Below are positions 24,980 to 49,065 of a stretch of DNA of 64,000 nt, piece by piece (within the stretch, counting starts at the first letter, position 1; each line of letters opens with the position of its first letter). Below the pieces are notes generated by a model. The model did no database searches. It was given only the letters and a program-made list of their open reading frames with translations, and was not told the origin of the DNA. The stretch spans positions 124,001 to 188,000 of the forward strand of contig NZ_JABBND010000011.1 of NCBI RefSeq assembly GCF_012933465.1, given 5' to 3'. The translations under genes and the position numbers were made by a program. The stretch comes from Actinomycetospora sp. TBRC 11914 (GTDB lineage Bacteria > Actinomycetota > Actinomycetes > Mycobacteriales > Pseudonocardiaceae).

Positions 24980-25633
24980 GTGGCCGATCCACGGATGAAC
25001 GGCTCGACGGCCCACGCCGTCGATGCGGCCGAGTCACCGCGACCCCGCGGCCGGCCACGGCTCGACATCGACCGTGACGCGGTCGCCGACGCGGTGGCCG
25101 AACTCTTCGCGGAGGGTGGGTACGAGGCGGTGTCGATCGCCGACACCGCCGCGAAGCTGTCGGTGTCACGGTCGACGCTCTACCGCACGGTCCCGACCAA
25201 GGACGACCTCCTCGGCATCCTCTTCGAGCGCGGGACCCGACAGCTCACCGAGGACGCCCAGGCGGTCATCGCCGCCCATCCCGACGCGCCCGGCGACCAG
25301 ATGCGGGAGCTGCTCCGGATCCAGATCCGAGCGGCGGTCTCCATGCGGAACTACCTCCCGGTGTTCTTCGGCGAGGGGAACATCCCGCCCGACGTCTACG
25401 GGCGGTGGCAGGTCTGGGCGCGGGAGTACGAGATCCTCTGGCGCGACGTCGTCGCGCGCGCCATGGAGGCCGGGGCCGTGGAGAAGGACGACCCGGTGGT
25501 CACGGCCCGACTCCTGCTCGGCATGTGCATCTGGGTCTCGCGGTGGTACCGCGCCCGCGGTACGCAGACCGCCGACGACATCGCCGACGCCGCCATCGGG
25601 ATGCTGCGCCTCGGGGTCGTCCCCGACGCCTAG
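24980..25633 (+). CDS. TetR/AcrR-family regulator
   Basis: A 217-residue TetR protein. A basic N-terminal tail (PRPRGRPRLDIDRD) precedes the DNA-binding helix-turn-helix, ending LSVSRSTLYRTVPTKDDLLGILF; the rest is an alpha-helical ligand domain. GTG start with GGAGG upstream. It separates the beta-oxidation region from the membrane-protein region, so it is one candidate for the class 1 or class 2 elements. Its TAG overlaps the TAG of the convergent gene (25630-25633). Confidence 0.88.
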   Translation: MADPRMNGSTAHAVDAAESPRPRGRPRLDIDRDAVADAVAELFAEGGYEAVSIADTAAKLSVSRSTLYRTVPTKDDLLGILFERGTRQLTEDAQAVIAAHPDAPGDQMRELLRIQIRAAVSMRNYLPVFFGEGNIPPDVYGRWQVWAREYEILWRDVVARAMEAGAVEKDDPVVTARLLLGMCIWVSRWYRARGTQTADDIADAAIGMLRLGVVPDA

Positions 25634-26409
25634 CCGGGCGCCGGGCAGTCCGAGGCGACGCGCTCCGCTAGACCGATCGCGCGCAGCGTGGTGACGCTCA
25701 TGGCGACCAGCCACGTGAAGAAGACCCCGACCGGCAGGTAGAAGGCGATCACGCCGTTCCACGAGAAGGGGCCGGAGGTGAAGAGACTGATCATGCCGGC
25801 CGGGGCGAAGAGGAACGCGGACCAGAGACTCAGGAACCCCACCCAACGCGGGTAGACGGGCTCGTCGCTGTCGTCCTGCTGCAGGATCGGGACTGCGATC
25901 GCGATCATCCAGATCGTGAAGGGGACCCAGGGGTAGAGGAAGAGGAACCACCCCAGGTCGTGGTCGGACGAAGTGATCTCCGGCGACACCGTGCCCGCGC
26001 GGAACGCGGCCGCGGCCCAGAACACGGCCGTGAGCACGACGACGACCACCGCGACCGCGATCGAGCTGAGCTGGACGTAGGTCGCCGTCGGTATGCGGTC
26101 GCGCTCGATGCGCCGGCACTGGACCGCGATCGAGACCCCGAACGGCAGGATCATCCCCATGCTGACCTGCAGCAGGAAGCAACCCATGAGGATCATCGGA
26201 CGGTGCTGCTCGTACATGGCCGTGATCTGCACCGGGCTCGTCGAGGGCGAGGGCGGGGGGAGCCATCCGATGAGGCCGACGTAACCGACCGCGAACACGA
26301 CCATCAGGAGCGGCCCGCACCAGGCGCAGAGCCGCTCGACGGTGAGCTGCCGCAGGACGGTCGAGCCGGTCACCGTCCCCCGCCCCAGCCGCGGGGCGGT
26401 GGCGGTCAC
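25630..26409 (-). CDS. Polytopic membrane protein, PPPSP family, member 1
   Basis: A 259-residue protein with about six hydrophobic segments. It shares with the proteins at 28220 and 38249 an opening LCAWCGP-type segment, the motif W/RFxPPPSP after the first helix, a helix followed by VQCRRIERDR, the long W-FLFL loop region, PRWVGFLSLW and GPFSWNGVIAFYLP. I recognise no named family and give no function. The GTG start overlaps the TGA of the 258-residue membrane protein gene upstream, indicating coupling. Recurrence beside norE/norF-like genes suggests a role in the same membrane system. Confidence 0.78.
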   Translation of the reverse strand: MTATAPRLGRGTVTGSTVLRQLTVERLCAWCGPLLMVVFAVGYVGLIGWLPPPSPSTSPVQITAMYEQHRPMILMGCFLLQVSMGMILPFGVSIAVQCRRIERDRIPTATYVQLSSIAVAVVVVVLTAVFWAAAAFRAGTVSPEITSSDHDLGWFLFLYPWVPFTIWMIAIAVPILQQDDSDEPVYPRWVGFLSLWSAFLFAPAGMISLFTSGPFSWNGVIAFYLPVGVFFTWLVAMSVTTLRAIGLAERVASDCPAPG

Positions 26410-27182
26410 GGAGCGCCGCCCGCCGGGGCCATCACACGTCCGGGGTCGGACGTCGACGCGGTGGCGGTCGGAGCGGGGGCGATCCCCCAGACCGACACCC
26501 CGGAGCGCAGTCGGGCCACGAGGATCGTCATCGCCACGCCCGCCACGGTGCAGACGACACCGAGCAGGATCCACTGCACGGAGCGGAAGGCGTCGGTGAG
26601 CCAGACGCTCGTCCCGACGAAGTAGCACGCCGACATCGCCGTGAACCCGGACCACATCACCACGTCCTGGCCGGCCACGGATCGCCGACGCAGCAGCAGC
26701 GACACCGCGCACACCGGGTAGGAGGCGATGGTGAGCCCGAAGCCGAGGAGGTAGAGGTCGTCGTCGAAGATGAACTTGACGTTCTCCCAGATGACGGCGG
26801 ACACGAGCGCGGTGCCGATCATGGCGACGGTGAACGCCCGCCGGCTCCACGTGGGAAGCAACTCGGCCCTGGCGAGGACGATGTCCTGGACCACGAACGC
26901 GATCTCGAAGGCCACCGTCGCGAGGAACGCCACCCAGAAGAGCTCCATGAACCAGCTGTCGTACTGCACGAACCACTTCTCGAAGCGGTACACCAGCGAC
27001 GAGTCGTGCGCGAGCCAGTAGAAGGTGCAGAAGAGCGGGATCGAGTACACGCGCTCACGACGTGCACGCCGGAAGGCCGCGATGAACCACACGTAGTTGG
27101 CGATCATCGCGAGACCGCAGGTGATGAGCAGCGGCCAGCGGTGGGCGTCGATGGTGGCCAGCAACTCCGCGGGGTCGTACAC
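26406..27182 (-). CDS. Seven-helix membrane protein, family shared with 48334
   Basis: A 258-residue protein with about seven hydrophobic helices. It is a homologue of the protein at 48334-49065: both have FYWLAHD/LWFAHD in helix 2, LFWV-L-TV-FE-F--Q in helix 3 and QWI-L near the last helix. The conserved His-Asp and Glu within membrane segments are unusual. GTG 27182 was chosen because GAGGAGG lies six bases upstream and the longer frame runs into the promoter. Function unknown; diverges from the norE-like gene at 27350. Confidence 0.75.
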   Translation of the reverse strand: MYDPAELLATIDAHRWPLLITCGLAMIANYVWFIAAFRRARRERVYSIPLFCTFYWLAHDSSLVYRFEKWFVQYDSWFMELFWVAFLATVAFEIAFVVQDIVLARAELLPTWSRRAFTVAMIGTALVSAVIWENVKFIFDDDLYLLGFGLTIASYPVCAVSLLLRRRSVAGQDVVMWSGFTAMSACYFVGTSVWLTDAFRSVQWILLGVVCTVAGVAMTILVARLRSGVSVWGIAPAPTATASTSDPGRVMAPAGGAP

Positions 27183-27294: not shown

Positions 27295-27349
27295 TGCTCA
27301 GGAGGCTCGGGGGGTGGTACAAGAAACCCACCGGCGATGAGGAGCTCCC

Positions 27350-27940
27350 GTGACCGCAGCCCCCGAACGCGCGAGGCCGACGGAGCCGGTGTCCCGGTTC
27401 CCGGGCGAGGCCGGGCTGTGGGTCTTCGTGCTGGGCGACATGTGTGCGTTCACGGTCTTCTTCACGACCTTCCTGGTCGAGCGTCGCGACCGGCACGCAG
27501 CGTTCTCCGCGGCGCACACCGCGCTGGACCCCGGTCTCGGGCTCGCGAACACTCTCCTGCTCCTGACCGGCTCGCTGTTCGTGGCGGCCGGTCTCGGCGC
27601 CCACCGACGGGGAGGCTCCGGTGCCCCGTCGGCCTTCGGGCTGGCGGCTCTGTGCGGGGCGGCCTTCGTCGTCGACAAGGTCGTCGAGTACACCGACCTG
27701 ATCACGAGCGGCCACACGCCCTACTCGGAGACGTTCTTCGCGACCTTCTTCGTGTTCACCGGCATCCACCTCCTGCACGTGCTCATCGCGCTGGTGGTGC
27801 TGGCGGTGATGGCCCGCGCGGCCGGGCGGACCCCGGCGCGGCCGACCGACGCCCGGATGATCGCCAGCGGGGCCGTGTACTGGCACATGGTCGATCTGCT
27901 CTGGCTCGTGCTGTTCTGCCTCTACTACCTGATGGGATGA
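27350..27940 (+). CDS. NorE/cytochrome c oxidase subunit III-like protein, copy 1
   Basis: A 196-residue heme-copper oxidase subunit III-type protein with about five helices, the length of NorE rather than of full CoxC. Landmarks are FPGEAGLWVFVLGDMCAF, the helix with DKVVEYTDL, FFVFTGIHLLHV and the ending YWHMVDLLWLVLFCLYYLMG. In Paracoccus-type nor operons NorE accompanies nitric oxide reductase, but no catalytic subunit lies here. GTG start; its TGA overlaps the ATG of the norF-like gene. Confidence 0.88.
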   Translation: MTAAPERARPTEPVSRFPGEAGLWVFVLGDMCAFTVFFTTFLVERRDRHAAFSAAHTALDPGLGLANTLLLLTGSLFVAAGLGAHRRGGSGAPSAFGLAALCGAAFVVDKVVEYTDLITSGHTPYSETFFATFFVFTGIHLLHVLIALVVLAVMARAAGRTPARPTDARMIASGAVYWHMVDLLWLVLFCLYYLMG

Positions 27941-28212
27941 CGCCGGTGCACATCCGTGTCCCGCGGGACGTCCTCGCGGTCTGGGCGATCCTCGTCGTCA
28001 TCACCCTCGTGGCCTTCGGGATCGGGGGCGAGGCGGTGACCGGGCGGGGCCTCGCGTCCGTCGTCCTCGCGCTCACCTTCGCCAAGGTCGGGCTCGTCGG
28101 CGCCTCCTTCATGGAGGTCCACCGGTCCGCGGCGATCCTGCGCGGTCTCTTCCTCGGCTGGCTCGTGGTGACCGCCGGGCTGCTGATCGTGCTGGTCCAC
28201 CTCGGTTTCTAG
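27937..28212 (+). CDS. NorF/cytochrome oxidase subunit IV-like protein, copy 1
   Basis: A 91-residue three-helix protein with the subunit IV/NorF pattern: a first helix VWAILVVITLVAFGIGG, a second with ALTFAKVGLVGASFMEVHRS, and a third WLVVTAGLLIVLVHLGF. ATG 27937 overlaps the preceding TGA (ATGA), so it is coupled to the norE-like gene. Homologues occur at 35864 and 37347, each next to a norE-like gene. Ends 7 bp from the convergent PPPSP gene. Confidence 0.85.
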   Translation: MTPVHIRVPRDVLAVWAILVVITLVAFGIGGEAVTGRGLASVVLALTFAKVGLVGASFMEVHRSAAILRGLFLGWLVVTAGLLIVLVHLGF

Positions 28213-28219: not shown

Positions 28220-28975
28220 TCACGCCATCGCACCGAACGCGGACGACGCATCCTCCCCCGCCCCGACCTCGACGTCCGCGTCCGCGTCCGCGTCCGCGTC
28301 CGGGACAGCGACAGCCCTCAGCAGGGCCCAGGTCACGAGACACATCCAGACCGTGAACGCCACCGCCGGGATCCACAGTCCGATGGCGCCGTTCCAGGTC
28401 ACCGGTCCCGCCTTGAACAGTGGGATCACGGTGCCGGGCAGGAACACGAGTTGCGCCCACAGGTTGAACCACCCGAACCAGCGCGGGAACAGCCTCTCCG
28501 AGCGGTCGCCGAGGACCACCAGGCTCAACGCCAGCCCCTGCACCGTCACGATCGGTACCGGGCTGAGGAACATGAACCAGCCCATGTCGTTGAACCGCTG
28601 GGTGAAGACGACGTCCTCGAGCGGGCGGTACGCGGCCGTCTGCCAGAAGATCGCCGCGAGCACGAACAGGAGCACGAACAGGGTGCCCAGACCGAACTGC
28701 ACGTAGGTCAACGGCGACTGCCGTCCCTCGATCCGCTTCATCTGCACGGCGATGACGGCGACCCAGGGTAGGTAGAGCACCCCGCCGATGAGCAGCAGCA
28801 CCATGCCCCAACGAATTCCGACAGCGTTGCCGGCGAAGAACGTCGCGATCTCCGGCGCGCTCTCCTGAGGTGACGGCGGCGGGATGAACCGGGCGAAGAA
28901 CAGCAGCCCGATGATCCAGAGGAACGCGCACACCGGGCCCGACCAGGCGCAGGCGCGGAGGTAGGAACGCTTCAT
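28220..28975 (-). CDS. Polytopic membrane protein, PPPSP family, member 2
   Basis: A 251-residue protein with about six membrane helices, homologous to members at 25630 and 38249: ARFIPPPSP, VQMKRIEGRQSPL, IFWQTAAYR, DMGWFMFLS, RLFPRWFGWFNLW, FKAGPVTWNGAIGLWIP. It is closest to the 38249 protein, sharing RRIEG, FWQTA-YR and the phenylalanine/tryptophan pattern. The C-terminal tail is acidic, with a short Asp-Ala run encoded by four TCCGCG units. Function unknown. A class 2 site lies 130 bp upstream of its start. Confidence 0.8.
   Translation of the reverse strand: MKRSYLRACAWSGPVCAFLWIIGLLFFARFIPPPSPQESAPEIATFFAGNAVGIRWGMVLLLIGGVLYLPWVAVIAVQMKRIEGRQSPLTYVQFGLGTLFVLLFVLAAIFWQTAAYRPLEDVVFTQRFNDMGWFMFLSPVPIVTVQGLALSLVVLGDRSERLFPRWFGWFNLWAQLVFLPGTVIPLFKAGPVTWNGAIGLWIPAVAFTVWMCLVTWALLRAVAVPDADADADADVEVGAGEDASSAFGAMA
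28275..28298. repeat. Four tandem TCCGCG hexamers inside CDS
   Basis: Encodes the Asp-Ala repeat of the acidic tail of the PPPSP member 2. In-frame and short, so likely to vary in length between strains. Confidence 0.8.
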
Positions 28976-29251: not shown

Positions 29252-30055
29252 TCAGCCGCCGACACCGTAGGTGTCGATGAGCTCGAGGAGCCCCTCCCGG
29301 ACCTCCGGGTCGTCGGTGAGCGGGGTCGCGACGGCGGCGATCACGGCGTCCCGGAACGCCAGGCCCTCCCCCATGAGAGCTGCCGCGGCGATGAGCGTGC
29401 GGGTGGAGGCGACCTCGCGCAGGCCGGCGTCCCGTGCCCGACGCACTGCGGTGCCGAAGCGGACGAGCTCGTCGGCCGCGGGATCGCCGACCCGCGCCTC
29501 CCGCGCCACGATCGTGCGCTCCGCGTCGAGCGGCGGAAAGCCCAGCTCGATACCGACCATCCGCTGTCGCGTCGAGGTCTTGAGGTCCTTGAGCACGCTC
29601 TGGTAGCCGGGGTTGTAGGAGACCACCAACTGGAACCCGTCCGCCGCGGTGAGCGTCTGCCCGCCGAGGCGCTCGAGGGTCAGCTCGCGACGGTGGTCGG
29701 CGAGCGAGTGGACCACGACGATCGCGTCCTGCCGAGCCTCGACGACCTCGTCGAGATAGCAGATCCCACCCTCGCGCACCCCCCGGGTCAGTGGGCCGTC
29801 GACCCATTCGGTGTCGCCGCCGGTCAGGACGAAGCGTCCGACGAGGTCGGCGGCGGTCATGTCCTCGTGGCAGGACACCGTGTAGAGCGGTACCCCGAAC
29901 CGGTGGGCCATCGACTCCACCAGCCGGGTCTTCCCGCAGCCGGTCGGGCCCTTGAGCATGACCGGTAGCCCGCGTCGCCAGGCGGCCTCGAACACCTCGA
30001 CCTCCGTGGAGATCCCGAGGTAGTAGGGCCCGGACCCCGTCGTCCCCGTGCTCAT
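29252..30055 (-). CDS. NorQ/CbbQ-type MoxR AAA+ ATPase, copy 1
   Basis: A 267-residue AAA+ ATPase with Walker A GPTGCGKT (residues 36-43), Walker B ICYLDEV, the sensor region VVSYNPGYQSVLKDLKTSTRQR, and the C-terminal REVASTRTLIAAAAL. It matches NorQ/CbbQ, which with a VWA partner remodels metalloenzymes during metal insertion or reactivation. The partner NorD-like gene is directly upstream in the operon (29 bp). ATG 30055 follows GGAGG. The paralogue at 44949 is very similar. No nitric oxide reductase or Rubisco gene is nearby. Confidence 0.92.
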   Translation of the reverse strand: MSTGTTGSGPYYLGISTEVEVFEAAWRRGLPVMLKGPTGCGKTRLVESMAHRFGVPLYTVSCHEDMTAADLVGRFVLTGGDTEWVDGPLTRGVREGGICYLDEVVEARQDAIVVVHSLADHRRELTLERLGGQTLTAADGFQLVVSYNPGYQSVLKDLKTSTRQRMVGIELGFPPLDAERTIVAREARVGDPAADELVRFGTAVRRARDAGLREVASTRTLIAAAALMGEGLAFRDAVIAAVATPLTDDPEVREGLLELIDTYGVGG

Positions 30056-30084: not shown

Positions 30085-31842
30085 TCATGGCCCTGCTCCG
30101 GCGCGGGCGCGGACCGACCGCCGGCCCCCGGCAGCGGCGTTGCGCAGGGCCGCGGTGACCATGGGCCGCAGGTGCGCCACCAGTTCCGGGTAGCGCCCTA
30201 GCGGCCGGTGCTGGTGCTCGCCCCACACGCGCGCGAGCGCCTCCGGCTCGCCCGAGCCGCGCACGCTGATCCCCACGCACCCGATGCCCCCGAGCGCAGC
30301 CTCGTCGAGGGCCATCCGACTGTCCTCCTGGGCATGGACGCCGGTGTACTCGTCGTCGTGGGGCAGGCCGTCCCCGACGACGACGAGCAGGAGGTTGCTC
30401 GTCCCTCCCCGTGTCGCGAGGACGTGGGTACCGTGACGTACCGCGGCGCCGAGGCGGGTGTGGCCCGAGGGCGAGAGCGCGGACATCCGACGTCGGGCGG
30501 CGGCGTCCCAGCGGTCGTCGAAGGCCTTGACCCGCAGCATCCGGACCTGGCGGCGCCCGCGAGAGGAGAAGCCGTAGGTCGCGACGCGGTCACCGACCTG
30601 CTCGAGACCCGCCGAGAGCCGGGCGGCCACCTCGACCTGCTCGGCGAACACGTCCCCTTCGCCCACCGACCCGGTGGCGTCGAGCAGGACGAGGACCGCG
30701 AGGTCGCGTCCGGTGCGCCGGACGCCCGAACAGACGTCCGGGTCCCCGGCATCGCCCGCCGCGACGGCGATCCGGTGGTCGACGAGCGCGGTGAGGTCGA
30801 GCGAGTCGCCGTCCGCGCACCGCCGCCGGCGCTCATGGTGCAGGCTCAACCGGGCGAGCTCGCGGCGCAGGGCCGGGTCCGGCTCGGAGGCGGGCGGCCG
30901 GTCCTCGGGGCCGCCGGAGGGCGAGGGCGGGTCGAACTCGGTGACGGTGCACCAGTCCGGGCGGTAGCGGCCGCGGGCGCGGTCCCACTCGGGGTAGACG
31001 GTGCCGGTCGGCCGCCGCGGCGCCAGCAGGGAAGCGAGGGCGGGCGGTGTGCGGAGGCGCCCGGCGGCGTGCCCGATACGCCGCTGGCGACGGTTCCCGA
31101 CCGGCAGATCCTCGACGGCGGCGCCGGGGTTCTCGTCCGACGACGGGGCGGCGCCCATGCCCAGCAGCTTCTGCAGCGCCGCGGTGAACGGGTTCTTCAT
31201 CCCCCGCACCTGCAGCTTCTGCATGATCGCGCCGGTCTCGGCGTCCTCGGCCTCCTCGTCGTCGAGCTCGTCGACCGCCTGCTCACCGGCGGTGCCGCCG
31301 TGGTCGCGGTCCGAGGGCGCGACCCCGCCGGTCTCCCCCGCGTCCTCGGCATCGCTGCGCGCGAGCGCCCGCGCGCGGATACGCCCGTACCACTCCGGGA
31401 CGCCGGGCAGCGCCTCGTCGGACCGCGCCCGCTCCAGGGAATCGGACACCGAGACCGGCACCGACAGGTCGCCGACTGTCGCGGCGAGGTCGCTGAGCAC
31501 GGACCTCGGCAACAGGTCCGCCAGCACGCTGGCGGCCCGGGCTGCCTCGAGGACGAGGAAACGGTCGGACATCCCGGGCCGGCACCGGGTCAGGGCACGC
31601 ATCGGTCGGGAGTCGAGGCTCCCCACCGCGACCAGCGCCGCCTGGAGCACCACCGTCCGTCGGGCGGTCGGGAGCTGTGCGGTGGGCAGCACGACCGTCT
31701 CGCGATCGTTCCACGCCCGGGCGACGTCGTCCGCCCTGACGTGCATGCGGCGCCCCGCGATCGCGCCCGCCAGCAGGGTGAGGCGCCGCAGGCGGAGATC
31801 GGGTCGGTCGTTCGCTCCCGGCCCCTCGGGACCCTCAGCCAC
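30085..31842 (-). CDS. NorD/CbbO-like VWA protein, copy 1
   Basis: A 585-residue cytosolic protein with an alpha-helical N-terminal part (LRRLTLLAGAIAGRRMHV...), an acidic middle (ELDDEEAEDAETGA), the conserved YPEWDRARGRYRPDWCTVTEFDP segment and a C-terminal von Willebrand A domain. The MIDAS motif is DATGS, a Thr in place of the first Ser, followed by GDGLPHDDEY. It partners the NorQ-like ATPase. GTG 31842 is the probable start by comparison with the paralogue at 45775; it overlaps the AveC-like gene by 8 bp, and its ribosome-binding site is weak. Confidence 0.88.
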   Translation of the reverse strand: MAEGPEGPGANDRPDLRLRRLTLLAGAIAGRRMHVRADDVARAWNDRETVVLPTAQLPTARRTVVLQAALVAVGSLDSRPMRALTRCRPGMSDRFLVLEAARAASVLADLLPRSVLSDLAATVGDLSVPVSVSDSLERARSDEALPGVPEWYGRIRARALARSDAEDAGETGGVAPSDRDHGGTAGEQAVDELDDEEAEDAETGAIMQKLQVRGMKNPFTAALQKLLGMGAAPSSDENPGAAVEDLPVGNRRQRRIGHAAGRLRTPPALASLLAPRRPTGTVYPEWDRARGRYRPDWCTVTEFDPPSPSGGPEDRPPASEPDPALRRELARLSLHHERRRRCADGDSLDLTALVDHRIAVAAGDAGDPDVCSGVRRTGRDLAVLVLLDATGSVGEGDVFAEQVEVAARLSAGLEQVGDRVATYGFSSRGRRQVRMLRVKAFDDRWDAAARRRMSALSPSGHTRLGAAVRHGTHVLATRGGTSNLLLVVVGDGLPHDDEYTGVHAQEDSRMALDEAALGGIGCVGISVRGSGEPEALARVWGEHQHRPLGRYPELVAHLRPMVTAALRNAAAGGRRSVRARAGAGP

Positions 31843-32965
31843 CCGGGGAGAAGGGGACGTTCGCCGGGACCTGGTTCCCGTTCGCGTCGACACCCCCGCC
31901 GGGCTGGGCGTAGGACGAGTTGCCGCGCGAGAGCGGCACCGTCGGGCCGGGGCACGCGCGGTCGGTCCCGGTGCCGCAGAGCCCGTTCATGAAGTACGAG
32001 CGCTTCTGCGTGTCCTCGTTCCACGTGTCGGAGTGGATGCCGACGAAGAAGTTGGGCACGTTGTAGGTCAGCAGGAAAGCGACCTGGACCGCCGCGATCG
32101 CGGCGAAGCAGCGCACGATCACCTTGCGGCCCTCGCCGCCCTCGAGGTCCTCCGACCCGCGCTCCATCAGGGTCTGGCCCTTGTCGTCGGTGTAGTACCT
32201 CAGCGCCGCGACCGCGGTGAACGTCGCGCCGATCGACAGGGCCTCGTGCAGGGGGAACGCGAAGTAGCTGTCCGGGAAGGTCTGCAGGTAGCCACCGGCG
32301 TAGTGGAAGATCCCCATCGGCAGCCAGAGGATCCCCTCCAGCACGAAGTCGAACAGCATCATGAAGACGTACAGCGCGCCGATCATGCCGAGCTTGCCGA
32401 GACGCGGGAACCGTGCCTGCACCTTCCGCATGAACCAGGAGCCCAGGAACATGACGATCACGAAGATGTAGGAGTAGGCGCCGGGCGTGAACAGGATGGG
32501 CTCGACGAGCATGTGCCCCGGGGCGCCGTAGGACAGCCATCCGGGGATGCTGTTCACCCACGACCCGAAGTTGATCATCCAGGAGTTGTAGTCGAACCAG
32601 TGGCCACCGTAGGACGAGATCGGGTCCTGCCACCACATCGTCAGGAACGCGACGACGAGGATGCCGTCGACGCCCACCCGACGATCCCGCATCCAGGGTC
32701 GGATCACGAACCAGGCCAGGAGCCCCAACGCGATCGGGATACTGACGACCTGCCAGCCGACGAGGATGACCCTCATCAGCATCGGCGGCTCGGTCGGCCC
32801 CGGGTCCACGCGCACGAAGTACGGACCGGACACCCAGCGGATCAGCACCCAGACCTCGAACGCGATGATCACCGCGCCCACCACGGCCCAGACGTTGACC
32901 GGCCGGGTACGGCGCGGCTCCACGTCCTCGATCGAGGGCAGTGACCGTTCCTGGCTGGTCGTCAT
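31835..32965 (-). CDS. AveC-like (spirocyclase AveC family) membrane protein, copy 1
   Basis: A 376-residue protein with about seven to eight membrane segments. It resembles the AveC-type family of actinobacteria and is homologous to 42900-43991; shared motifs are WQDP/FQEP, NFGSW(V/L)NxIPGW, D-x3-E in a helix, FPLxE-LS, DD-G-x3-ERG and YN(V/I)P. The membrane-embedded acids could be catalytic or metal ligands, an inference only. The assignment to AveC is from memory of the family pattern, so the function is open. First gene of the AveC-NorD-NorQ operon, with a class 2 palindrome 37 bp upstream. Confidence 0.7.
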   Translation of the reverse strand: MTTSQERSLPSIEDVEPRRTRPVNVWAVVGAVIIAFEVWVLIRWVSGPYFVRVDPGPTEPPMLMRVILVGWQVVSIPIALGLLAWFVIRPWMRDRRVGVDGILVVAFLTMWWQDPISSYGGHWFDYNSWMINFGSWVNSIPGWLSYGAPGHMLVEPILFTPGAYSYIFVIVMFLGSWFMRKVQARFPRLGKLGMIGALYVFMMLFDFVLEGILWLPMGIFHYAGGYLQTFPDSYFAFPLHEALSIGATFTAVAALRYYTDDKGQTLMERGSEDLEGGEGRKVIVRCFAAIAAVQVAFLLTYNVPNFFVGIHSDTWNEDTQKRSYFMNGLCGTGTDRACPGPTVPLSRGNSSYAQPGGGVDANGNQVPANVPFSPGG

Positions 32966-37634: not shown

Positions 37635-38252
37635 TCACCTCACCAGGTAGATCAGGGGGAACAGCACGATCCAGAGGAAATCGACCATGTGCCAGAAGCA
37701 GGCTCCGCCCTCGAGGTAGGCGAACCGCTGCGCGCTGAGCGCCGGCTTGCGCGCCTGGAGGAAGCACCAACCGAGGACGCCCATGCCGATCAGGAGGTGG
37801 AAGAAGTGCATCCCGGTCAGTGCGTAGTAGTACACCCAGAACTCGTTCGTCTGGACGACCTGACCGGCGGCGATGTGTCCGCCCCACTCGATCACCTTGC
37901 TGATCGCGAAACCGAGGCCGCACGCGAGGCCTCCCGCGAACGCGATCGGGCCCAGTGGTCTGAGTCCCGCCCGGACCGCCCGGACGCCGATGACCACGAA
38001 GAGGGAACTGGCCAGCAGCAGGAGGGTGTCGACCGCCCCGAAACCGACCGCCAGCTGCTGCTGGCCGACCGAATAGAGGTCGGGGTGTTGGCTGTGGGAG
38101 TACAGCCAGATCACGAACAGGAAGGTGAAGGCGACCGTCTCCCCGCCGATGAACACCCAGATCCCGGCTTCGCCCGGTATCCGGGGCCGTGCCGGGTCCG
38201 GCATCGCGGGCCGTGCGGACTCGACCCCCCGTGACGTCTCGACCGTGCTCAT
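37635..38252 (-). CDS. NorE/cytochrome c oxidase subunit III-like protein, copy 3
   Basis: A 205-residue protein: IPGEAGIWVFIGGETVAFTFLFVIWLY, SKVIEWGGHIA, YYALTGMHFFHLLIGMGVLGW and CFWHMVDFLWIVLFPLIYLVR. Compared with copies 1 and 2 the first helix has ETVAF in place of DM-AF. Start overlaps the stop of the PPPSP member 3 by four bases, which ties the two families into one transcript. Confidence 0.88.
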   Translation of the reverse strand: MSTVETSRGVESARPAMPDPARPRIPGEAGIWVFIGGETVAFTFLFVIWLYSHSQHPDLYSVGQQQLAVGFGAVDTLLLLASSLFVVIGVRAVRAGLRPLGPIAFAGGLACGLGFAISKVIEWGGHIAAGQVVQTNEFWVYYYALTGMHFFHLLIGMGVLGWCFLQARKPALSAQRFAYLEGGACFWHMVDFLWIVLFPLIYLVR

Positions 38253-41526: not shown

Positions 41527-42885
41527 CTAGGCGGGCCGGGTCCGGGACGTGAGACGACGACTCTGCGCGGCATCGCTGAGCCGCTTGGCCGCGCCCAGAC
41601 CGCTCACCAGGCCGCCGTTGAGGCCGGGGATGCGGTCGCTGTCGCTCGCGAACTGCACCCGGGCGAAGCGGTCGAGCCGCTTGTTGTAGTCGGAGATGCG
41701 ACCGAACTTGCCCCGGTCGATCGTCGGGACCGAGCGCTGCCAGCGGACGACGACGCTCTCCTCGAGCGTCGAGGGCACCTTCGGGTGGTACCGCGACGCG
41801 CGGTCGACGGCGTAGTCGAGCACGTCGTCGTCGGAGAGGTGCTCGCTGCGCTCGAGGTACTCGTGGGAGAGGAGCACCGTGAGCAGGCCCTTGTGGTCGG
41901 GAGCGCGGTTGGGCGCCTTGTTGTGGTCGGCGATGACCGCGATGACGTCCGGGTCCTCGACCGGGGGGACGAGGTAGTAGGTCGCGGGGTCCTTCGGGCG
42001 CTCCGACAGGCCCAGGCAGATGCTGCCGAGCTTGCGGTAGCTCACCGACTGGTAGAACTCGCGGGTGTTGGTGTCCATCTGCGGGTAGATGTCCATCGCG
42101 GGCTCGACCGGGGTGGCGATCACGCAGGTGTCGAAGTGCTCGGTCTGCTGCTGACCGCCCGCGGTGAAGGTGACCTCGACGTCGGACCCGTTGTCCGTGA
42201 CGTTGGTGACCTCGTGCTCCAGGCGGGTCTTCACGTAGGTCGCGAGGTGGTTCGGAAGGCCGACGACTCCCGAGGTCAGGTTGTAGATGTTCTGCACCAG
42301 CATGTTCCGGACGCTCCACACCATGAGCGACACGGAGGTGTCGGCGTCGTCGGCGACCCAGGTCCCGCTGACCAGGGGCCTGCCGACGTACTGCAGCAGC
42401 TCCTCGTTCAGTTCGCGGCGGCACCACTCGCGCACCGTCTCGTTGTCGATGTCCTGGAGATCGTCGTAGCTGTCGTAACCCAGGCTCTTGCGGTGCTTGA
42501 CCACCTGCAGCCCGATCTTGATGGCGAGGAGCTTGGCCTTCGGCGAGAGGTAGGGCGTCGTCAGGACCGTCCGCAGGGGCCTCGTGTAGTCGAAGTAGTA
42601 CGGCTTCCCGTTCCGGATCGCCGCACCCGTCGCGGTCCACTCCGCGAGCTCGTGCTCGAGCCCGACCTCCTTGACCAGCTCGATGGCCTCGCGATAGGTC
42701 CCGAGGTAGGCCGAGGTCCCGAGGTCCATCAGGAAGTCGCCCTTCCAGATGCTCCAGATACGGCCCCCGACGCGGTCGTTGACCTCGAACAGCGTGGTCT
42801 CGAACCCTTCCTGCTGGAGCCGGTAGGCCGCGCTCGTGCCGGCGATGCCTGCGCCGATGACGGCTGCGGTGCGTGTCTGCGACAT
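41527..42885 (-). CDS. FAD-dependent oxidoreductase (amine oxidase superfamily)
   Basis: A 452-residue flavoprotein: AAVIGAGIAGTSAAYRLQQEGF, NDRVGGRIWS, and a C-terminal end LNGGLVSGLGAAKRLSDAA. It is a paralogue of the protein at 8822 (shared DxNKAPxRAP segment and overall order). Substrate unknown; placed between an AveC-like and another membrane protein gene, so it may act on a membrane-bound lipid. ATG 42885. Confidence 0.88.
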   Translation of the reverse strand: MSQTRTAAVIGAGIAGTSAAYRLQQEGFETTLFEVNDRVGGRIWSIWKGDFLMDLGTSAYLGTYREAIELVKEVGLEHELAEWTATGAAIRNGKPYYFDYTRPLRTVLTTPYLSPKAKLLAIKIGLQVVKHRKSLGYDSYDDLQDIDNETVREWCRRELNEELLQYVGRPLVSGTWVADDADTSVSLMVWSVRNMLVQNIYNLTSGVVGLPNHLATYVKTRLEHEVTNVTDNGSDVEVTFTAGGQQQTEHFDTCVIATPVEPAMDIYPQMDTNTREFYQSVSYRKLGSICLGLSERPKDPATYYLVPPVEDPDVIAVIADHNKAPNRAPDHKGLLTVLLSHEYLERSEHLSDDDVLDYAVDRASRYHPKVPSTLEESVVVRWQRSVPTIDRGKFGRISDYNKRLDRFARVQFASDSDRIPGLNGGLVSGLGAAKRLSDAAQSRRLTSRTRPA

Positions 42886-42899: not shown

Positions 42900-43991
42900 C
42901 TAGTGCGGGCTGACGATGCGATTGGTGGGCGAGGACTCCCGGGCGATGGGGAGCCTCGGGTCCGGGCAGTCGTACGCGGTCTTGGGACCGCAGACCCCGC
43001 CGTTGCGGTAGTCCCGGTCGATGAGCGGCTGGGGCATCGGCCCGGAGTGCAGGGAGTAGAACCCGTACGGGATGTTGAAGGCCAGCAGGATGCACAGCTG
43101 GCAGGCGCCGGCGATCGCCGCGAAGCGGGCGAGGGTGCGGACACCCTCACTCTTGATCTTCAGCTTGTCGATCCCCCGCTCCGGCCAGGACCGCCCCTGG
43201 TCGTCACGGAAGAAGTGCAGGCAGGACAACAGGATGAAGGTGCCCGGCCAGCTCAGCGGCTCGTAGAGCGGGAACTGGTGGTCGGTGCCCGCGAAGAGAG
43301 TCAGCTCCGGAATGGTCGCCGAATAGCTGATCAGCCCGGTCCGCGTCATGATCAGTTCGACGATGACGTCGCCGACGATCATCACGAGATACGTCTGGGC
43401 GATGAGCCGGAACCGGCTCCGGGTCGGGTCCTTGCGCCGCTGGTATCCCATGTACCGCGAGCCCAGGTAGCCCGACATCGCGCACATCCACAGGTAGGCC
43501 GTGAAGTACACCATCGGCACCGGGATGAGCTGCGCGTTCGGCGAGCTCCACCCCGGGATGAAGTTCAGCCAGCTACCGAAGTTGACGAACGTCGTCGCGT
43601 ACTGGAACTGGTAGGTGACCCAGTTGATCCACGGTTCTTGGAAGAACATCAGCCAGCCGCCGAGGAAGAAGAGTCCGTCGAAGGACATCTTCCCCGTGCG
43701 AATCTTCGGCCGGGCGACGAAGTGCCACAGGATCCACCCGGTCACGCCGATGCCGAAGACGACCTCGACACAGCGGACGGTGATGACGTACCAGGCCGGC
43801 TCTTCCCCCCGACCGAGGGTGTTCGGGGTGAAATTGCCACTGACGACCCATGCCGTCCAGCAGTAGGCGATGAGCGCGAGCCAGGCGACACCGTGGAGGA
43901 TCCACAGCCTCGCCCGCGTCTTCTCGGCCTCCTCGGGCGAGGGACCCGAGCCCACCTCCGGCAGTGACCCGAGTCTCTCCGTCGTGCCCAT
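42900..43991 (-). CDS. AveC-like (spirocyclase AveC family) membrane protein, copy 2
   Basis: A 363-residue protein with about seven to eight helices, homologous to 31835-32965: FQEPWINW, NFGSWLNFIPGW, GDVIVELI, FPLYEPLS, DDQGRSWPERG, FNIPYGFYSLHSGP, C-terminal CPDPRLPIAR. The two copies differ in sequence outside these motifs, so they are old paralogues or arrived separately. Starts a leftward transcript that continues through two flavoproteins and membrane genes. Confidence 0.7.
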   Translation of the reverse strand: MGTTERLGSLPEVGSGPSPEEAEKTRARLWILHGVAWLALIAYCWTAWVVSGNFTPNTLGRGEEPAWYVITVRCVEVVFGIGVTGWILWHFVARPKIRTGKMSFDGLFFLGGWLMFFQEPWINWVTYQFQYATTFVNFGSWLNFIPGWSSPNAQLIPVPMVYFTAYLWMCAMSGYLGSRYMGYQRRKDPTRSRFRLIAQTYLVMIVGDVIVELIMTRTGLISYSATIPELTLFAGTDHQFPLYEPLSWPGTFILLSCLHFFRDDQGRSWPERGIDKLKIKSEGVRTLARFAAIAGACQLCILLAFNIPYGFYSLHSGPMPQPLIDRDYRNGGVCGPKTAYDCPDPRLPIARESSPTNRIVSPH

Positions 43992-44248: not shown

Positions 44249-44905
44249 TCAGCCGCCGCCGGTGGCCGGCGAGGTCCCCGTGGAGGCGCTGTAGTCCTTG
44301 ATCGCGCGGTCGCGCCACGCGCGCAACGCCCCCGCGAAGTCGTACTTCTCCCGGTAGAGGACCGACCGGAAGCACAGACCGATGGCGTAGGAGACGAACT
44401 GCTCCGCTTCCCGGTCCGCGTCCATGTCCTCACGGACCGACCCGTCGTACTGGCCGGCGCGCAGATGGTCCCGCAGTTCGGACTGGTAGACCTCGATGAG
44501 TTCCTCGAACCAGGGAGCGAAGCCGCGCAGCGCGACCGGTGTCTCGAACGTGAGGGCGATCATCGCGCGGATGAGCTCCGGCTCTGCCTCGACCGAGGTG
44601 GTGAGATCGTCGAGGACCCCGAGGACCCGGTCGAGCCCCCGGCCTCGTCGCTCCCGCCGCGCTGCCGGGAGCAGGCGCCGCCCGAACTCGGCCTCGAAGA
44701 GCGACCGGAGCAGTTCCTCCTTCGTGCCGTAGCGGTCACGGACCATGTTCCGACTGAAGCCCGCCCGCGAGCCGATCTCGGCCGCCGTGGTCTGGTGGTA
44801 GCCCTTCTCGCCGAAGAGCTGGATCGCCGCGGTGATCAGCGCGAGCGTCGACTCCTCGACACGCTCGTGGTTCGGCTTCGACGGCCGGCTCCCGGGCGCT
44901 GCCAC
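44249..44905 (-). CDS. TetR/AcrR-family regulator
   Basis: A 218-residue TetR protein (LITAAIQLFGEKGYHQTTAAEIGSRAGFSR, then NMVRDRYGTKEELLRSLFEAEFG). The recognition-helix end reads NMVRDRYGTK where most TetR proteins have LYxHFxxK, suggesting a different DNA sequence preference. Helical ligand domain complete to the C-terminus. It lies 43 bp downstream of the NorQ-like gene on the same strand, so it is probably co-transcribed with norD-norQ copy 2. Confidence 0.87.
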   Translation of the reverse strand: MAAPGSRPSKPNHERVEESTLALITAAIQLFGEKGYHQTTAAEIGSRAGFSRNMVRDRYGTKEELLRSLFEAEFGRRLLPAARRERRGRGLDRVLGVLDDLTTSVEAEPELIRAMIALTFETPVALRGFAPWFEELIEVYQSELRDHLRAGQYDGSVREDMDADREAEQFVSYAIGLCFRSVLYREKYDFAGALRAWRDRAIKDYSASTGTSPATGGG

Positions 44906-44948: not shown

Positions 44949-45764
44949 TCATCGGCGGGCAGCCACGTCCGTGCCGTCGTAGGTACGGATCATCCGCAGC
45001 AGCCCGTCGCGGATGACGGCGTCGTCGGTCAGCGGTCCGGCGATCGCTGAGAGAGCGGCCTCCTCGAAGCCCAGACCGGCCCGGACCAGGGTGGCCGCGG
45101 CCACCAGCGTCCGGGTCGAGGCGACCTCGCGCAGCCCGCCCTCCGCGATCCCCCGGATCGCTCCGGCGAGGCGCACCAGGTCGTCCGCGACGTCGTCACC
45201 GACCCCGGCCTCCTCACGGACGATCGCCCGCTCGATCTCCGGTGCCGGGAAGCCCAGCTCGATGGAGACGAGGCGCTGCCGCGTCGAGGGCTTGAGGTCC
45301 TTGAGCACGCTCTGGTATCCGGGGTTGAAGGAGACGACGAGGCCGAAGCCCTCGGCGGCGCGCAGCGTCGTGCCGCCGAGCCGTTCGATGCTCAGCTCAC
45401 GCCGGTGGTCGGCCAGCGAGTGGATCGCGACCACCGCGTCCTGCCGGGCCTCGACGACCTCGTCGAGATAACAGATCCCGCCCTCCCGCACGGCCCTGGT
45501 CAGCGGGCCGTCCACCCAGACCGTGTCGCCGCCCTGGAGAACGTAGCGCCCGAGGAGATCGCTGGCAGTCATGTCCTCGTGACACGACACGGTGAACACC
45601 GCGACCCCGAGTCGGTGGGCCATGTGCTCGACGAGGCGGGTCTTGCCGCTGCCCGTGGGTCCCTTCAGCATCACCGGGAGACGGGACTCGTGGGCCGCGC
45701 GGAAGATCTCCACCTCTCGGCCGACGGGCTGGTAGTACGGGACGCCGCCCGCCGGGGTGACCAT
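44949..45764 (-). CDS. NorQ/CbbQ-type MoxR AAA+ ATPase, copy 2
   Basis: A 271-residue AAA+ ATPase: Walker A GPTGSGKT (residues 35-42), TVSCHEDMTASDLLGRYVLQGGDTVWVDGPLTRAV, Walker B ICYLDEV, VVSFNPGYQSVLKDLKPSTRQR, REVASTRTLVAAATL. Very similar to copy 1 at 29252. ATG 45764 lies 10 bp after the stop of the NorD-like gene. Confidence 0.92.
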   Translation of the reverse strand: MVTPAGGVPYYQPVGREVEIFRAAHESRLPVMLKGPTGSGKTRLVEHMAHRLGVAVFTVSCHEDMTASDLLGRYVLQGGDTVWVDGPLTRAVREGGICYLDEVVEARQDAVVAIHSLADHRRELSIERLGGTTLRAAEGFGLVVSFNPGYQSVLKDLKPSTRQRLVSIELGFPAPEIERAIVREEAGVGDDVADDLVRLAGAIRGIAEGGLREVASTRTLVAAATLVRAGLGFEEAALSAIAGPLTDDAVIRDGLLRMIRTYDGTDVAARR

Positions 45765-45774: not shown

Positions 45775-47505
45775 CTACGGACGAGAGGGACCTCCCGTCC
45801 CGTGACGGCTCGCGGCGGCCTCTCGCAGCGCCTGCCGGAACATCGCGGTGACGTGTCCCACGAGCTGATCCGGCCGCTCCAGCTCCCGGTGCGCCACATG
45901 TCCCCACACGTGGTCGATGACGTCGGGGCGCGTCGAGCTGCGCACGCTGACACAGGCGCAGCCCACGCCGACGGCGACCGCTTCCCGGAAAGCCCGCCGA
46001 CAATCGTCCCGGGCGTAGCGGTCCTCGTACCCGTCGTCGTAGGGCAGCCCGTCGCCGACCACGACGAGCAGCGTGTTCACGGTTCCGGCGGCAGTGGCGA
46101 GCAGCCGGGAACCGTGCCGGACGCCGGCGCCGAGGCGCGTGAACCCACCGGGCTCCAGCCGCGCCAACCGGCGTCGGGCGGCACGGTCGAACGGCGCATG
46201 GAAGTCCTTCACCCGGAGGAACTGGCTGGCCCCTCGGCCCCACGAGCGGAAGCCGTAGCAGGCCGCGCGGTCTCCCACCTCGGTGAAAGCGGACGTCAGC
46301 CGGGCGGCGACCTCGCGCTGCGCCTCGAACACCGACGGGCCACCGCCGTGGTCGGACTCTCCCGTGGAGCCGCTGGCGTCGAGGAGGACCAGCACCCCGA
46401 GGTCATGGCCGGTCGGCCGCCGCGTCTCGTACACCCGGTTCTCCGTCGAGGTCCCGGTCCGTCGGTCGATCGCGAGGTCGATCAGGGCGGTCACGTCCAG
46501 GGTGTCGCCGTCGGGAAGTCGACGGTGGCGCTCCGGTACGACGCCCAGGCGTGCGATCTCCCGCAGGAGGCGCTCGTCGCGGGGGTACTCGAGGGCCGTG
46601 TCGTGCTCGACGGGCGCCGGGTCGTGCTCCGTGACCGTGCACCAGTCGCGACGGTACCGACCGACGTCGCCGTCCCATTCGGGATACCGGTGCGTGCTCG
46701 GCGGGCTCGACTCGGTCGTCGCACCCACCGGCCGGCCTCCGCTCCTGCCGAGCTCGCGGGCCCGGCGTGGGGCCCGTCGCCCGACCGGCAGCTCCTCCCC
46801 ACCGCGGGCAGCAGTGTCGTCACGCCCCGTCGAGGTGCCGAGGAGCGACCGCAGGAGACGGGACAGCGCCGTGTCACCTCCCTCTCCGCCGAGGCCGGCG
46901 AAGACGCTGCTCTCCTCCCCGTCCTCGTCGGATGCGTCGACGTCCTCCGCCGGCCGTCCGTCGTCCCGGACGTCGCCCGGCGAGGTCTCCCACGTGCCCC
47001 GGGCGTGGGCCAGGAGGGTGCCCGGCCGGATCGTGCCGAGCCATTCCGGTGCCCGCGCGACCGCTCGCCGGTGTTTCCGTGCCCGGTCGACCGATTCCCG
47101 TGGACTCCCGGTCGTCGGGCCGTCGTGGAGGGCCCGGAGGCGTTGCGTGAGACGACGCGGCAGCCGGTCTCCGAGGACTTCCGCGGCCCTGGCGGCCTCG
47201 AGCGTGAGGTACCGGGCGCGGAGGTCGGGGCGGGTGCCGAGGCGGACGACGATGCCCGGGGTGAGGCTCCCCAGGCGGAGCAGGCAGGCCTGGACGACGA
47301 CGGGGTCGACCGCCGCCTCCGGGTCGTGCTCCGGCACGACGATGCGCAGCCCGTCGGTGTACGCGAGGTCGACGGGGCCTCCGGACACCACGACACGCCG
47401 ACCGGCCAGTGCGGCGGCGAGGAGGGTCAGGTTCCCGTACGCGTTCGTGGAGGACCGTTCCCCTGGCTCCGGCTCCGTCAGGGCGGGCGCCGGCACCACG
47501 CTCAC
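45775..47505 (-). CDS. NorD/CbbO-like VWA protein, copy 2
   Basis: A 576-residue protein like that at 30085: N-terminal NLTLLAAALAGRRVVV, middle DEDGEESS, YPEWDGDVGRYRRDWCTVTEHDP, and a VWA domain with a regular MIDAS motif LLDASGSTGES and GDGLPYDDGYEDRY. The intact DxSxS contrasts with DATGS of copy 1. GTG 47505 overlaps the TGA of the crotonase upstream (GTGA); further upstream the frame is only a shadow of that gene. Confidence 0.88.
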   Translation of the reverse strand: MSVVPAPALTEPEPGERSSTNAYGNLTLLAAALAGRRVVVSGGPVDLAYTDGLRIVVPEHDPEAAVDPVVVQACLLRLGSLTPGIVVRLGTRPDLRARYLTLEAARAAEVLGDRLPRRLTQRLRALHDGPTTGSPRESVDRARKHRRAVARAPEWLGTIRPGTLLAHARGTWETSPGDVRDDGRPAEDVDASDEDGEESSVFAGLGGEGGDTALSRLLRSLLGTSTGRDDTAARGGEELPVGRRAPRRARELGRSGGRPVGATTESSPPSTHRYPEWDGDVGRYRRDWCTVTEHDPAPVEHDTALEYPRDERLLREIARLGVVPERHRRLPDGDTLDVTALIDLAIDRRTGTSTENRVYETRRPTGHDLGVLVLLDASGSTGESDHGGGPSVFEAQREVAARLTSAFTEVGDRAACYGFRSWGRGASQFLRVKDFHAPFDRAARRRLARLEPGGFTRLGAGVRHGSRLLATAAGTVNTLLVVVGDGLPYDDGYEDRYARDDCRRAFREAVAVGVGCACVSVRSSTRPDVIDHVWGHVAHRELERPDQLVGHVTAMFRQALREAAASRHGTGGPSRP

Positions 47506-48290
47506 CGCCCCCGGAACCGCGCGGGCCGCTTCTCCTTGAACGCGGCGACCCCCTCGGCGTAGTCGGCGCTGTCGGCCGCCTCCACCTGGGCCGCGATCTC
47601 GACCTCCATCTGCTCGTCGAGGGACGCGGAGCGCGAGGAGCGGAGCTGGCGCTTCACCAGCGCCTGCGCCAGCGGCCCCTGCGCCAGACGGCTCGTGAAC
47701 TCGGCGACACCGGTCGCCAGCTCCGCCGCCGGGACGACGCGGTTGACCAGGCCGAGCCGGAGCGCGTCGGTCGACGACACATCCCCGCCCAGCATCATCA
47801 GCTCCGTCGCGGCCGCGTGCCCCACGAGTCGCGGGAGCAGCCATGAACCACCGGCGTCCGGCACGAGGCCGATGCGCACGAACAGGAACGCGAACCGCGC
47901 CTCCTCGGCCATCACGCGGAAGTCGCAGGCGAGGGTCAACGAGGCCGCAGCTCCCGCGGCGACGCCGTTCACCGCGGCGACGATCGGCTTGTCGAGCTCG
48001 AGCATCGCGCGCACGAGCGGGTTGTAGTGGTCGCGGAGGAGCTCTTCCGTCGTCATCACCCGCGGGCCCTGTCCGACGGCCTGCCCCGAGCTGAACGCCT
48101 TCCCTCGCCCCGTCAGCACGACGCAGCGCACCGAGTCGTCCTGCCCGGCCCGCTCGATCTGGGAGTGCAGGCCGTCGACGACGTCCGCCGTGAGACTGTT
48201 GCGGCTGTCCGGGCGGTTGATCTCGAGCGTCAGGACTCCGTCCTCGAGGCCGACGACCAACTCGTCGACGTCGGTTCCCGCAATGCTCAT
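47502..48290 (-). CDS. Crotonase-family protein, PaaG-like type
   Basis: A 262-residue crotonase. GKAFSSGQAV at the oxyanion hole; the first hydratase Glu is missing (GAAASLTLACD), and FVRIGLVPDAGGSWLLPRLVG carries the Asp of PaaG-like isomerases, as in 10144-10971. It is coupled to the norD-like gene by a GTGA overlap, an odd pairing of a CoA enzyme with a metalloenzyme chaperone which suggests the NorQ/NorD pair serves the same lipid pathway. Confidence 0.88.
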   Translation of the reverse strand: MSIAGTDVDELVVGLEDGVLTLEINRPDSRNSLTADVVDGLHSQIERAGQDDSVRCVVLTGRGKAFSSGQAVGQGPRVMTTEELLRDHYNPLVRAMLELDKPIVAAVNGVAAGAAASLTLACDFRVMAEEARFAFLFVRIGLVPDAGGSWLLPRLVGHAAATELMMLGGDVSSTDALRLGLVNRVVPAAELATGVAEFTSRLAQGPLAQALVKRQLRSSRSASLDEQMEVEIAAQVEAADSADYAEGVAAFKEKRPARFRGR

Positions 48291-48333
48291 GCCACCCCTT
48301 CTCGTGGGCCTTCCCGGTCGGATGCCGGAGTCG

Positions 48334-49065
48334 TCAGACGATCGAGGCGACGGAAGGCTGGACCGCGGCCGACGTCTCCCGCGACCGTGGCAGGCGCGAC
48401 ACGAACCACGCCATCCCGAGTCCCCCGAGGACGCCCGCGCCGCACAACGCGATCCATCGTGGCCCCTGGAAGGCTCCTCCGAACACCGAGATCGATACCG
48501 CGCCGTAGGTGAGGATCATCCCGGTGAAGGCGATCCACTGGACCACGGACTGCCCGCTCCGGTCACCGCGCCGGACCGCCATCGCGAAGCCGGAGCCAAG
48601 GGCCCACACGGCGGTGAGCATGAACGTCATGAGGTAGAGCGGGTCAGCGAGCGTTTCCTTCGCGACGGCCCAGAGGACCAGACCCAGAACGATCGCGCCC
48701 ACGACGTAGAGATTCCACGATCCGCGACTCATGGCCAGGCCGGCCTCGCGCCGTCCGTGGCGGAAGGACTGGTAGAGGAAGACGACCTCGAACGAGAACG
48801 TGACGAGCAGCCCGACCCAGAAGAGCTTCGGGAACCAGTGGTCGAGGCCGAGGAACCATGTCGGGAAGTCCGCCAGGTAGTTCAGGTCGTGCGCGAACCA
48901 CAGGGTCGAGGCCAGCAGGTAGAAGGACTGGCAACGGTCACGCCGACCGCACCGTGCCCCTTCGAAGAAGAAGGTGTAGTTGCAGAGCAGGGCGACCGTC
49001 CCGAGCGCCACGACGACGACGGGATGGGCCGAGATCCGCGGCAGGATTTCCCCGACCGTGTACAT
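48334..49065 (-). CDS. Seven-helix membrane protein, family shared with 26406
   Basis: A 243-residue protein with about seven helices; LWFAHDLNYLADF, LFWVGLLVTFSFEVVFLYQSF, VVQWIAFTGMILTYGAVS. Homologous along its length to the 258-residue protein at 26406-27182. Start ATG 49065 with a perfect class 2 palindrome 36 bp upstream. Function unknown; position at the head of the crotonase-norD-norQ-tetR transcript mirrors the first module. Confidence 0.76.
   Translation of the reverse strand: MYTVGEILPRISAHPVVVVALGTVALLCNYTFFFEGARCGRRDRCQSFYLLASTLWFAHDLNYLADFPTWFLGLDHWFPKLFWVGLLVTFSFEVVFLYQSFRHGRREAGLAMSRGSWNLYVVGAIVLGLVLWAVAKETLADPLYLMTFMLTAVWALGSGFAMAVRRGDRSGQSVVQWIAFTGMILTYGAVSISVFGGAFQGPRWIALCGAGVLGGLGMAWFVSRLPRSRETSAAVQPSVASIV

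Follow-up and report, generated by a model that had tools for sequence, protein, structure and literature searches.

Genes of the nor accessory families occur in multiple copies in a 64,000-nucleotide stretch of the Actinomycetospora sp. TBRC 11914 genome (contig NZ_JABBND010000011.1, positions 124,001 to 188,000; hereafter the window). Between 25.6 and 49.1 kb, gene calls based on codon bias and a Pfam scan of their proteins gave two NorQ-like ATPases, two NorD-like VWA proteins, three NorE-like (COX3) and three NorF-like (COX4_pro) proteins, together with two AveC-like proteins, three PPPSP proteins, two members of an unnamed polytopic family that we label T6, and a further polytopic protein, g40. 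Our results indicate that AveC is the commonest labelled partner of NorQ and NorD of this type, that NorE- and NorF-like genes go with PPPSP genes, and that these are two physically separable modules. In module A, NorQ and NorD (MoxR AAA+ and VWA) would act as a chaperone pair dedicated to AveC-like seven-transmembrane (7-TM) proteins. Module B would be a membrane complex of the seven-helix PPPSP protein with NorE- and NorF-like subunits, devoid of an oxidase subunit I. In the window both would belong to a large cluster most likely handling a lipophilic, perhaps isoprenoid, compound. With moderate confidence, we favour this joint reading, in which activation of AveC docked by NorD and driven by NorQ stands beside a separable PPPSP-NorE-NorF module in a cluster for a lipophilic compound.

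The association of AveC with NorQ and NorD is strong. Named genomes were scanned with a NorQ alignment, and the best 80 loci of a longer list were examined in six frames. AveC was found in 53 of the 55 top NorQ loci (L077-L131), within 3 kb in 50 and within 5 kb in all 53, and in none of the 25 lower-ranked loci. The split after L131 was drawn once the six-frame result was known, and the NorQ-tree clade described below agrees with it. Of the two top loci without AveC, L099 has only about 1.3 kb of contig upstream of NorQ; the other is L109. A purpose-built COX1 profile matched none of the 55 top loci and 10 of the 25 lower-ranked ones, and found nothing in a further 40 regions that were fetched, of which two belong to this genome. 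A preliminary description of this DNA had proposed that these NorQ and NorD proteins accompany something other than nitric oxide reductase (NOR), and the survey bears this out. The tight unit in many loci of Mycobacterium, Nocardia and gammaproteobacteria is AveC-NorQ-NorD alone, often with overlapping genes and with varied flanks.

A second survey covered 345 genomes of the host's class; its counts refer to listed matches, with only some candidates per genome scored. Four AveC matches below the Pfam cut-off, three CbbQ_C matches at about 22 bits, PPPSP matches of 84 bits or less together with unlisted ones, and COX3 matches under 190 bits were left out, and the CbbQ_C match of genome G082 was kept though it is a fragment with a stop. 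On this basis, AveC and CbbQ_C occur together more often than by chance, in 27 genomes; 5 have only AveC, 2 only CbbQ_C (the fragment being one of these) and 311 lack both. AveC lies within 10 kb of 37 of the 59 NorQ matches (within 3.5 kb of 36), and NorQ within 10 kb of 46 of the 78 AveC matches. Nine of the 22 NorQ matches without AveC within 10 kb were fetched: eight had another family, M233, beside them and one (L076) had neither. A short AveC paralogue (260-273 amino acids, aa) was also seen in several loci, some kb from the NorQD-linked one or without it (L063:3713-4501, L048:12387-13208, L049:7387-8169, L044:9473-10288).

In a tree of 109 NorQs, all 68 with AveC at 3.5 kb or less fall in a single clade of 74 (99/97). 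The other six members are L082 and L092, with AveC at 5 kb or less, L037, with AveC at 6.5 kb, and L076, L099 and L109, with none in the DNA examined. This clade extends to Solimonas and other gammaproteobacterial contigs. The two NorQs of the window share a subclade with that of Mycobacterium pinniadriaticum and others, yet are not sisters; the tree flags long branches, including those of the window NorQs and L077. NorQ and AveC distances are correlated (r 0.877 over 69 pairs; largest value in 500 shuffles 0.155), a correlation to which shared ancestry contributes. On three Pseudomonadales/Gammaproteobacteria contigs, the closest sequences to NorQ (77-84%) and to AveC (78-81%) alike come from another of these contigs or from mycobacteria; these three loci come from metagenome-assembled genomes, Solimonas terrae is an isolate, and the deltaproteobacterial and verrucomicrobial loci come as short pieces of DNA. 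Ten NorQs adjoining M233 form a second clade (100/99). This second NorB-less NorQD lineage (L047, L051, L052, L067-L071, L092, L119) also has M140 beside it in nine of the ten loci, the exception being L051, and in M233, itself a membrane protein, several His and Asp residues are conserved.

The NorE- and NorF-like proteins have a different companion. Among the listed matches of the NorE profile in the class genomes, 76 form a high group (194.7-274.2 bits), and the rest reach at most 120.8 bits. A PPPSP gene lies within 1.5 kb of 65 of these 76 NorEs, on the same strand in 64, so that the preliminary description was right in pairing NorE and NorF with a polytopic family. Among the matches kept, the 44 genomes with a high-group NorE are the same 44 that have a PPPSP match; weaker PPPSP matches occur in 20 more (64 with some match). 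PPPSP, NorE and NorF stand side by side in 14 of 20 fetched PPPSP loci, which were picked from the match list and not at random. A fourth PPPSP-NorE-NorF set was noticed in this genome outside the window, on the same contig (C3, about 46-48 kb; L174:6320-8130).

The two modules are rarely together. Only 3 of the 76 NorEs, all of them in this genome, have NorQ or AveC within 10 kb, and 12 genomes have NorE-PPPSP with neither AveC nor NorQ among the matches kept. A check for co-occurrence of AveC-like or PPPSP genes with norQD in other genomes had been advised; AveC co-occurs with NorQD and PPPSP with NorE and NorF, and NorE near NorQ or AveC is, among the class genomes, confined to this genome. 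In the named genomes, a mixture resembling ours was found in M. pinniadriaticum (L077), where AveC-NorD-NorQ, two more AveC, five PPPSP, T6 and NorE/F genes lie within 20 kb. At the genome level, high-group NorE is present in 31 of 32 AveC genomes and 28 of 29 NorQ genomes. This speaks for a shared pathway, though both occur mainly in the same lineages, so that the co-occurrence may reflect either a joint pathway or shared lineages.

The features of the region are as follows.

25630..26409, minus strand: PPPSP membrane protein g23 (family alignment)
26406..27182, minus strand: T6 polytopic protein g24 (no Pfam match; related to g47; 4 bp overlap with g23)
27389..27940, plus strand: NorE-like COX3 protein g25 (PF00510)
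27937..28212, plus strand: NorF-like COX4 protein g26 (PF03626)
28220..28975, minus strand: PPPSP membrane protein g27 (family alignment)
29252..30055, minus strand: NorQ-like MoxR AAA+ ATPase g28 (AAA_5, CbbQ_C; NorQ tree)
30085..31842, minus strand: NorD-like VWA protein g29 (VWA_2 below cut-off; metal ion-dependent adhesion site (MIDAS) DATGS; overlaps AveC by 8 bp)
31835..32965, minus strand: AveC-like 7-TM protein g30, heading AveC-NorD-NorQ (PF17198, 177 bits; AlphaFold2 predicted local distance difference test (pLDDT) 86.6)
35864..36136, minus strand: NorF-like COX4 protein g33 (PF03626)
36138..36758, minus strand: NorE-like COX3 protein g34 (PF00510)
37347..37628, minus strand: NorF-like COX4 protein g36 (PF03626)
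37635..38252, minus strand: NorE-like COX3 protein g37 (PF00510 on the shorter frame; NCBIfam subunit III models below cut-off)
38249..39064, minus strand: PPPSP membrane protein g38 (334 homologues at E 0.001; model pLDDT 93.1)
39061..40638, minus strand: phytoene-desaturase/CrtO-like FAD enzyme g39 (NCBIfam CrtO 224 bits, below the cut-off of 1000)
40670..41497, minus strand: polytopic protein g40, a distant AveC relative (hhalign with AveC, probability 93.9)
41527..42885, minus strand: FAD amine-oxidase family enzyme g41 (PF01593; NCBIfam protoporphyrinogen oxidase, 102.5 bits, cut-off 97.85)
42900..43991, minus strand: AveC-like protein g42, heading AveC-FAD-g40-FAD-PPPSP-NorE-NorF (PF17198, 159 bits)
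44249..44905, minus strand: TetR-family regulator g43 (PF00440)
44949..45764, minus strand: NorQ-like MoxR AAA+ ATPase g44 (AAA_5, CbbQ_C; NorQ tree)
45775..47505, minus strand: NorD-like VWA protein g45 (VWA models just below cut-off; MIDAS DASGS)
47502..48290, minus strand: enoyl-CoA hydratase (ECH) family protein g46 (PF00378)
48334..49065, minus strand: T6 polytopic protein g47, heading T6-ECH-NorD-NorQ-TetR (no Pfam match; 26 database entries at E 0.001, itself included)

Both NorQs pass the Pfam cut-offs for AAA_5 and CbbQ_C and have intact Walker A motifs (GPTGCGKT and GPTGSGKT). Each adjoins a NorD-like protein, for which VWA models score 21.2 and 25.3 bits (cut-off 27), with the MIDAS motifs intact and GDGLPxD also there. 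All three COX3 and all three COX4_pro proteins pass their cut-offs and are encoded as adjacent NorE and NorF pairs, and the two AveC_like matches lie far over the cut-off of 26.6 bits. The NorE protein g37 is better read as 205 aa from 37635-38252 than from the automatic start at 38156; its start then meets the PPPSP stop. The three PPPSP proteins have no Pfam match, nor do they match DUF4386 (PF14329) at E 0.01, a name used in UniRef for some PPPSP relatives; one listed relative carries PF14329. T6 proteins have invariant H59, D60, E93 and D141, and one window copy stands beside PPPSP, the other with NorD and NorQ. The genes form compact minus-strand runs: AveC (g30)-NorD-NorQ with gaps of -8 and 29 bp; AveC (g42)-FAD-g40-FAD-PPPSP-NorE-NorF with gaps of 14, 29, 31, -4, -4 and 6 bp, PPPSP g38 overlapping g39 and NorE g37 by 4 bp each; T6-ECH-NorD-NorQ-TetR with gaps of 43, -4, 10 and 43 bp; and T6-PPPSP with a gap of -4 bp. 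Because of these runs, the modules are physically joined in this genome.

How NorQ and NorD might act on AveC is suggested by cNOR, the NOR that they serve in Paracoccus denitrificans. There, active enzyme has been reported to require the NorD MIDAS and NorB residues D220/E222 at the cytoplasmic end of TM VII (PMC9976466), and twisting of the NorD linker by NorQ has been put forward in a 2026 paper (PMC13036017). The AlphaFold2 model of AveC, built from 74 alignment rows, has seven long helices (predicted template modelling score 0.85), and residues 258-277 are predicted to be cytosolic from the basic-residue counts of the loops and the alternation of the helices. This acidic loop between TM6 and TM7 has the pattern [DN]-[D]-x-G-x4-E. 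In the 86 AveCs with NorQ within 10 kb, D/N260 and G263 are found in all, E268 in 84 and D261 in 74; in the 15 without, the figures are D/N260 10, D261 6, G263 11 and E268 7, a contrast that is suggestive only and may be phylogeny, because these 15 are more divergent overall. By analogy with cNOR, NorD would bind the AveC loop through its MIDAS, and ATP hydrolysis by NorQ would remodel AveC into an active state, by cofactor insertion or by a conformational change alone. Residues D114, N118, E155, D206 and E210 may constitute the active site. No histidine column of the AveC alignment reaches 50% (the highest is 47%), and therefore a His-ligated, Fe_B-like iron is unlikely and metal-free remodelling is a serious option. 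Insertion of such an iron into AveC is thus doubtful, as is the metal dependence that had been put forward for the enzyme.

Several observations weigh against the joint reading. AveC does not always go with NorQD, since NorQ is missing within 10 kb of 32 of the 78 AveC matches and five AveC genomes lack CbbQ_C. The 15 AveCs without NorQ diverge outside the loop too, with D114 in 10 and E210 in 8 of them, and a deltaproteobacterial AveC is 39% identical to its nearest relative in the set whereas its NorQ reaches 85%. Related genomes inflate all the counts and make Fisher p-values exaggerate independence. As g41 passes the protoporphyrinogen oxidase cut-off, haem fits as well as an isoprenoid. 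Moreover, what the data show directly is gene content, linkage, the NorQ clade and conservation of the loop, while physical interaction, activation, membrane topology and substrate are points that we infer. Lastly, the next labelled neighbours within 5 kb of NorQ in the 55 loci are also frequent, namely cytochrome P450 (P450) and short-chain dehydrogenase/reductase (SDR), in 35 each, and a Peripla_BP_6-like gene, in 31. The client of NorQD could accordingly be one of these cluster members, with AveC merely a frequent neighbour. AveC is nevertheless more constant than any of them, and the tight unit of AveC, NorQ and NorD persists where the flanks vary, which makes such a client unlikely.

The preliminary description had gone further and proposed a single membrane-bound enzyme, dependent on metal, that NorQD would assemble and that would have NorE/F-like subunits. 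The mixing of all parts here and in M. pinniadriaticum, the compact run that joins AveC to PPPSP-NorE-NorF, and the presence of high-group NorE in nearly all AveC and NorQ genomes speak for it. As a rule, however, it is not supported, given the 3 of 76 NorEs near NorQ or AveC and the 12 genomes with NorE-PPPSP alone; furthermore, AveC lacks a conserved His and PPPSP has no conserved His beyond one column at 60%. We consider a single enzyme distinctly improbable. The count in that description of two NorQ, two NorD, three NorE and three NorF without an oxidase subunit I agrees with the gene calls, Pfam and the COX1 profile. Could these be leftover or displaced accessory genes of a cNOR whose norCB is elsewhere or lost? 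The families are the nor accessory families, and about 3% of the assembly (97% complete, 63 contigs) is lacking. The genes, however, are intact and duplicated, and their NorQ clade is free of COX1 in the 55 named loci. A search for norCB elsewhere had been advised: the genome has two COX1 genes, each scoring about 550 bits to the family, on contigs C26 and C1 and none on the window contig. No COX1-like frame was found in the window with the purpose-built profile; norC itself was not searched for. A remnant of this sort is very improbable. Equally hard to credit is a RuBisCO activase of the CbbQ-CbbO type. Among named relatives CbbQ is close, and a RuBisCO large subunit is encoded in the genome, yet its gene lies on contig C1, with a 155-aa gene behind it and then a P-loop protein of 329 aa that by eye resembles CbbX. 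Neither NorQ is near RuBisCO, and their clade is AveC-linked.

The region was compared with known systems. The cNOR NorQ-NorD pair of P. denitrificans (PDB 9qhd/9qh4) shares with the window the MoxR AAA+ ATPase (profile E about 1e-118 to NorQ chains), an adjoining VWA protein with a MIDAS and a membrane-protein neighbour; the window differs in having no norCB, an AveC neighbour without conserved His, and a separate NorQ clade. CbbQ-CbbO (PDB 6l1q, 5c3c) has an ATPase of the same family as the window NorQs, and CbbQ is described as working with a VWA partner, as NorQ does (PMC9976466). In contrast, no RuBisCO is nearby here, and that of the genome has its own P-loop neighbour (L178:6830-9708, contig C1 about 880 kb). 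Both CbbQ_C matches of the genome lie in the window, as do its two AveC genes over the cut-off; one further AveC, below it, is on C19. AveC of Streptomyces avermitilis, reported as the avermectin spiroketal/dehydration enzyme (PMC13303154), belongs to the same Pfam AveC_like family as the window AveCs; these differ in having NorQD as putative partner, and no polyketide synthase was noticed in the window. MvINS, the mycobacterial Insig homologue (PDB 4xu4), gave no Foldseek match to AveC at E 0.001; the likeness is a lead, too weak to establish relatedness. NorE and NorF of nor operons are, like ours, an adjacent COX3 and COX4_pro pair, whose function is described as unknown (PMC13036017); the window-type pair goes with PPPSP, and has no subunit I nearby.

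MoxR/VWA pairs with several targets are already on record (PMC9976466), and one paper names AveC proteins as taxonomic markers only (PMC5819568). In the open-access literature we found no description of AveC as a partner of NorQD, or of PPPSP-NorE-NorF. Our data suggest that NorQD and NorE/NorF have unrecognised partners. It is conceivable, and we propose it tentatively, that MoxR-VWA pairs split into lineages each specific to its own integral membrane enzymes, such as the AveC and the M233/M140 clades, and that a PPPSP membrane complex has NorE and NorF as general partners, these being not peculiar to NOR. NorQD is a model for AAA+/VWA chaperones that mature membrane metalloproteins, and an activase that uses ATP to act on a membrane cyclase-type enzyme would extend this family to a new kind of client. 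The NorQ clade tied to AveC and the NorE/NorF lineage tied to PPPSP give NorQD and NorE/NorF each a second natural setting, in which function could be studied apart from NO reduction. In Mycobacterium and Nocardia, genes of this kind might wrongly be taken to indicate NO reduction. Part of an antiparasitic drug is made by AveC, whose heterologous expression is mentioned as troublesome (PMC13303154); for those AveC relatives that are found with NorQD, a missing chaperone would be a candidate reason.

A lipophilic, perhaps isoprenoid, substrate is plausible from the neighbouring genes. These include P450s, a flavin monooxygenase (best NCBIfam match PtlE, below cut-off), many beta-oxidation-type genes, the CrtO-like FAD enzyme (below cut-off), g41 and two lignostilbene/carotenoid-type dioxygenases (below cut-off). 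The class genome G045 (L160, L161), absent from both the AveC and the CbbQ_C lists, has the dioxygenase (71%) and FADa (60 and 51%) along with NorE/F, four T6 and six PPPSP genes. The two dioxygenases (6107-7603 and 12814-14328; 498 and 504 aa) share 488 identical residues, their DNA being 98.9% identical over 1404 bases, and their best NCBIfam match, below cut-off, is lignostilbene dioxygenase. The Peripla_BP_6-like protein found beside NorQ and AveC has 370 aa (e.g. L062:7840-8952) and, by eye, no signal peptide. On contig C3, at 80-100 kb (L182), a gene run resembles a YrbE/MCE lipid importer, as judged by gene sizes alone.

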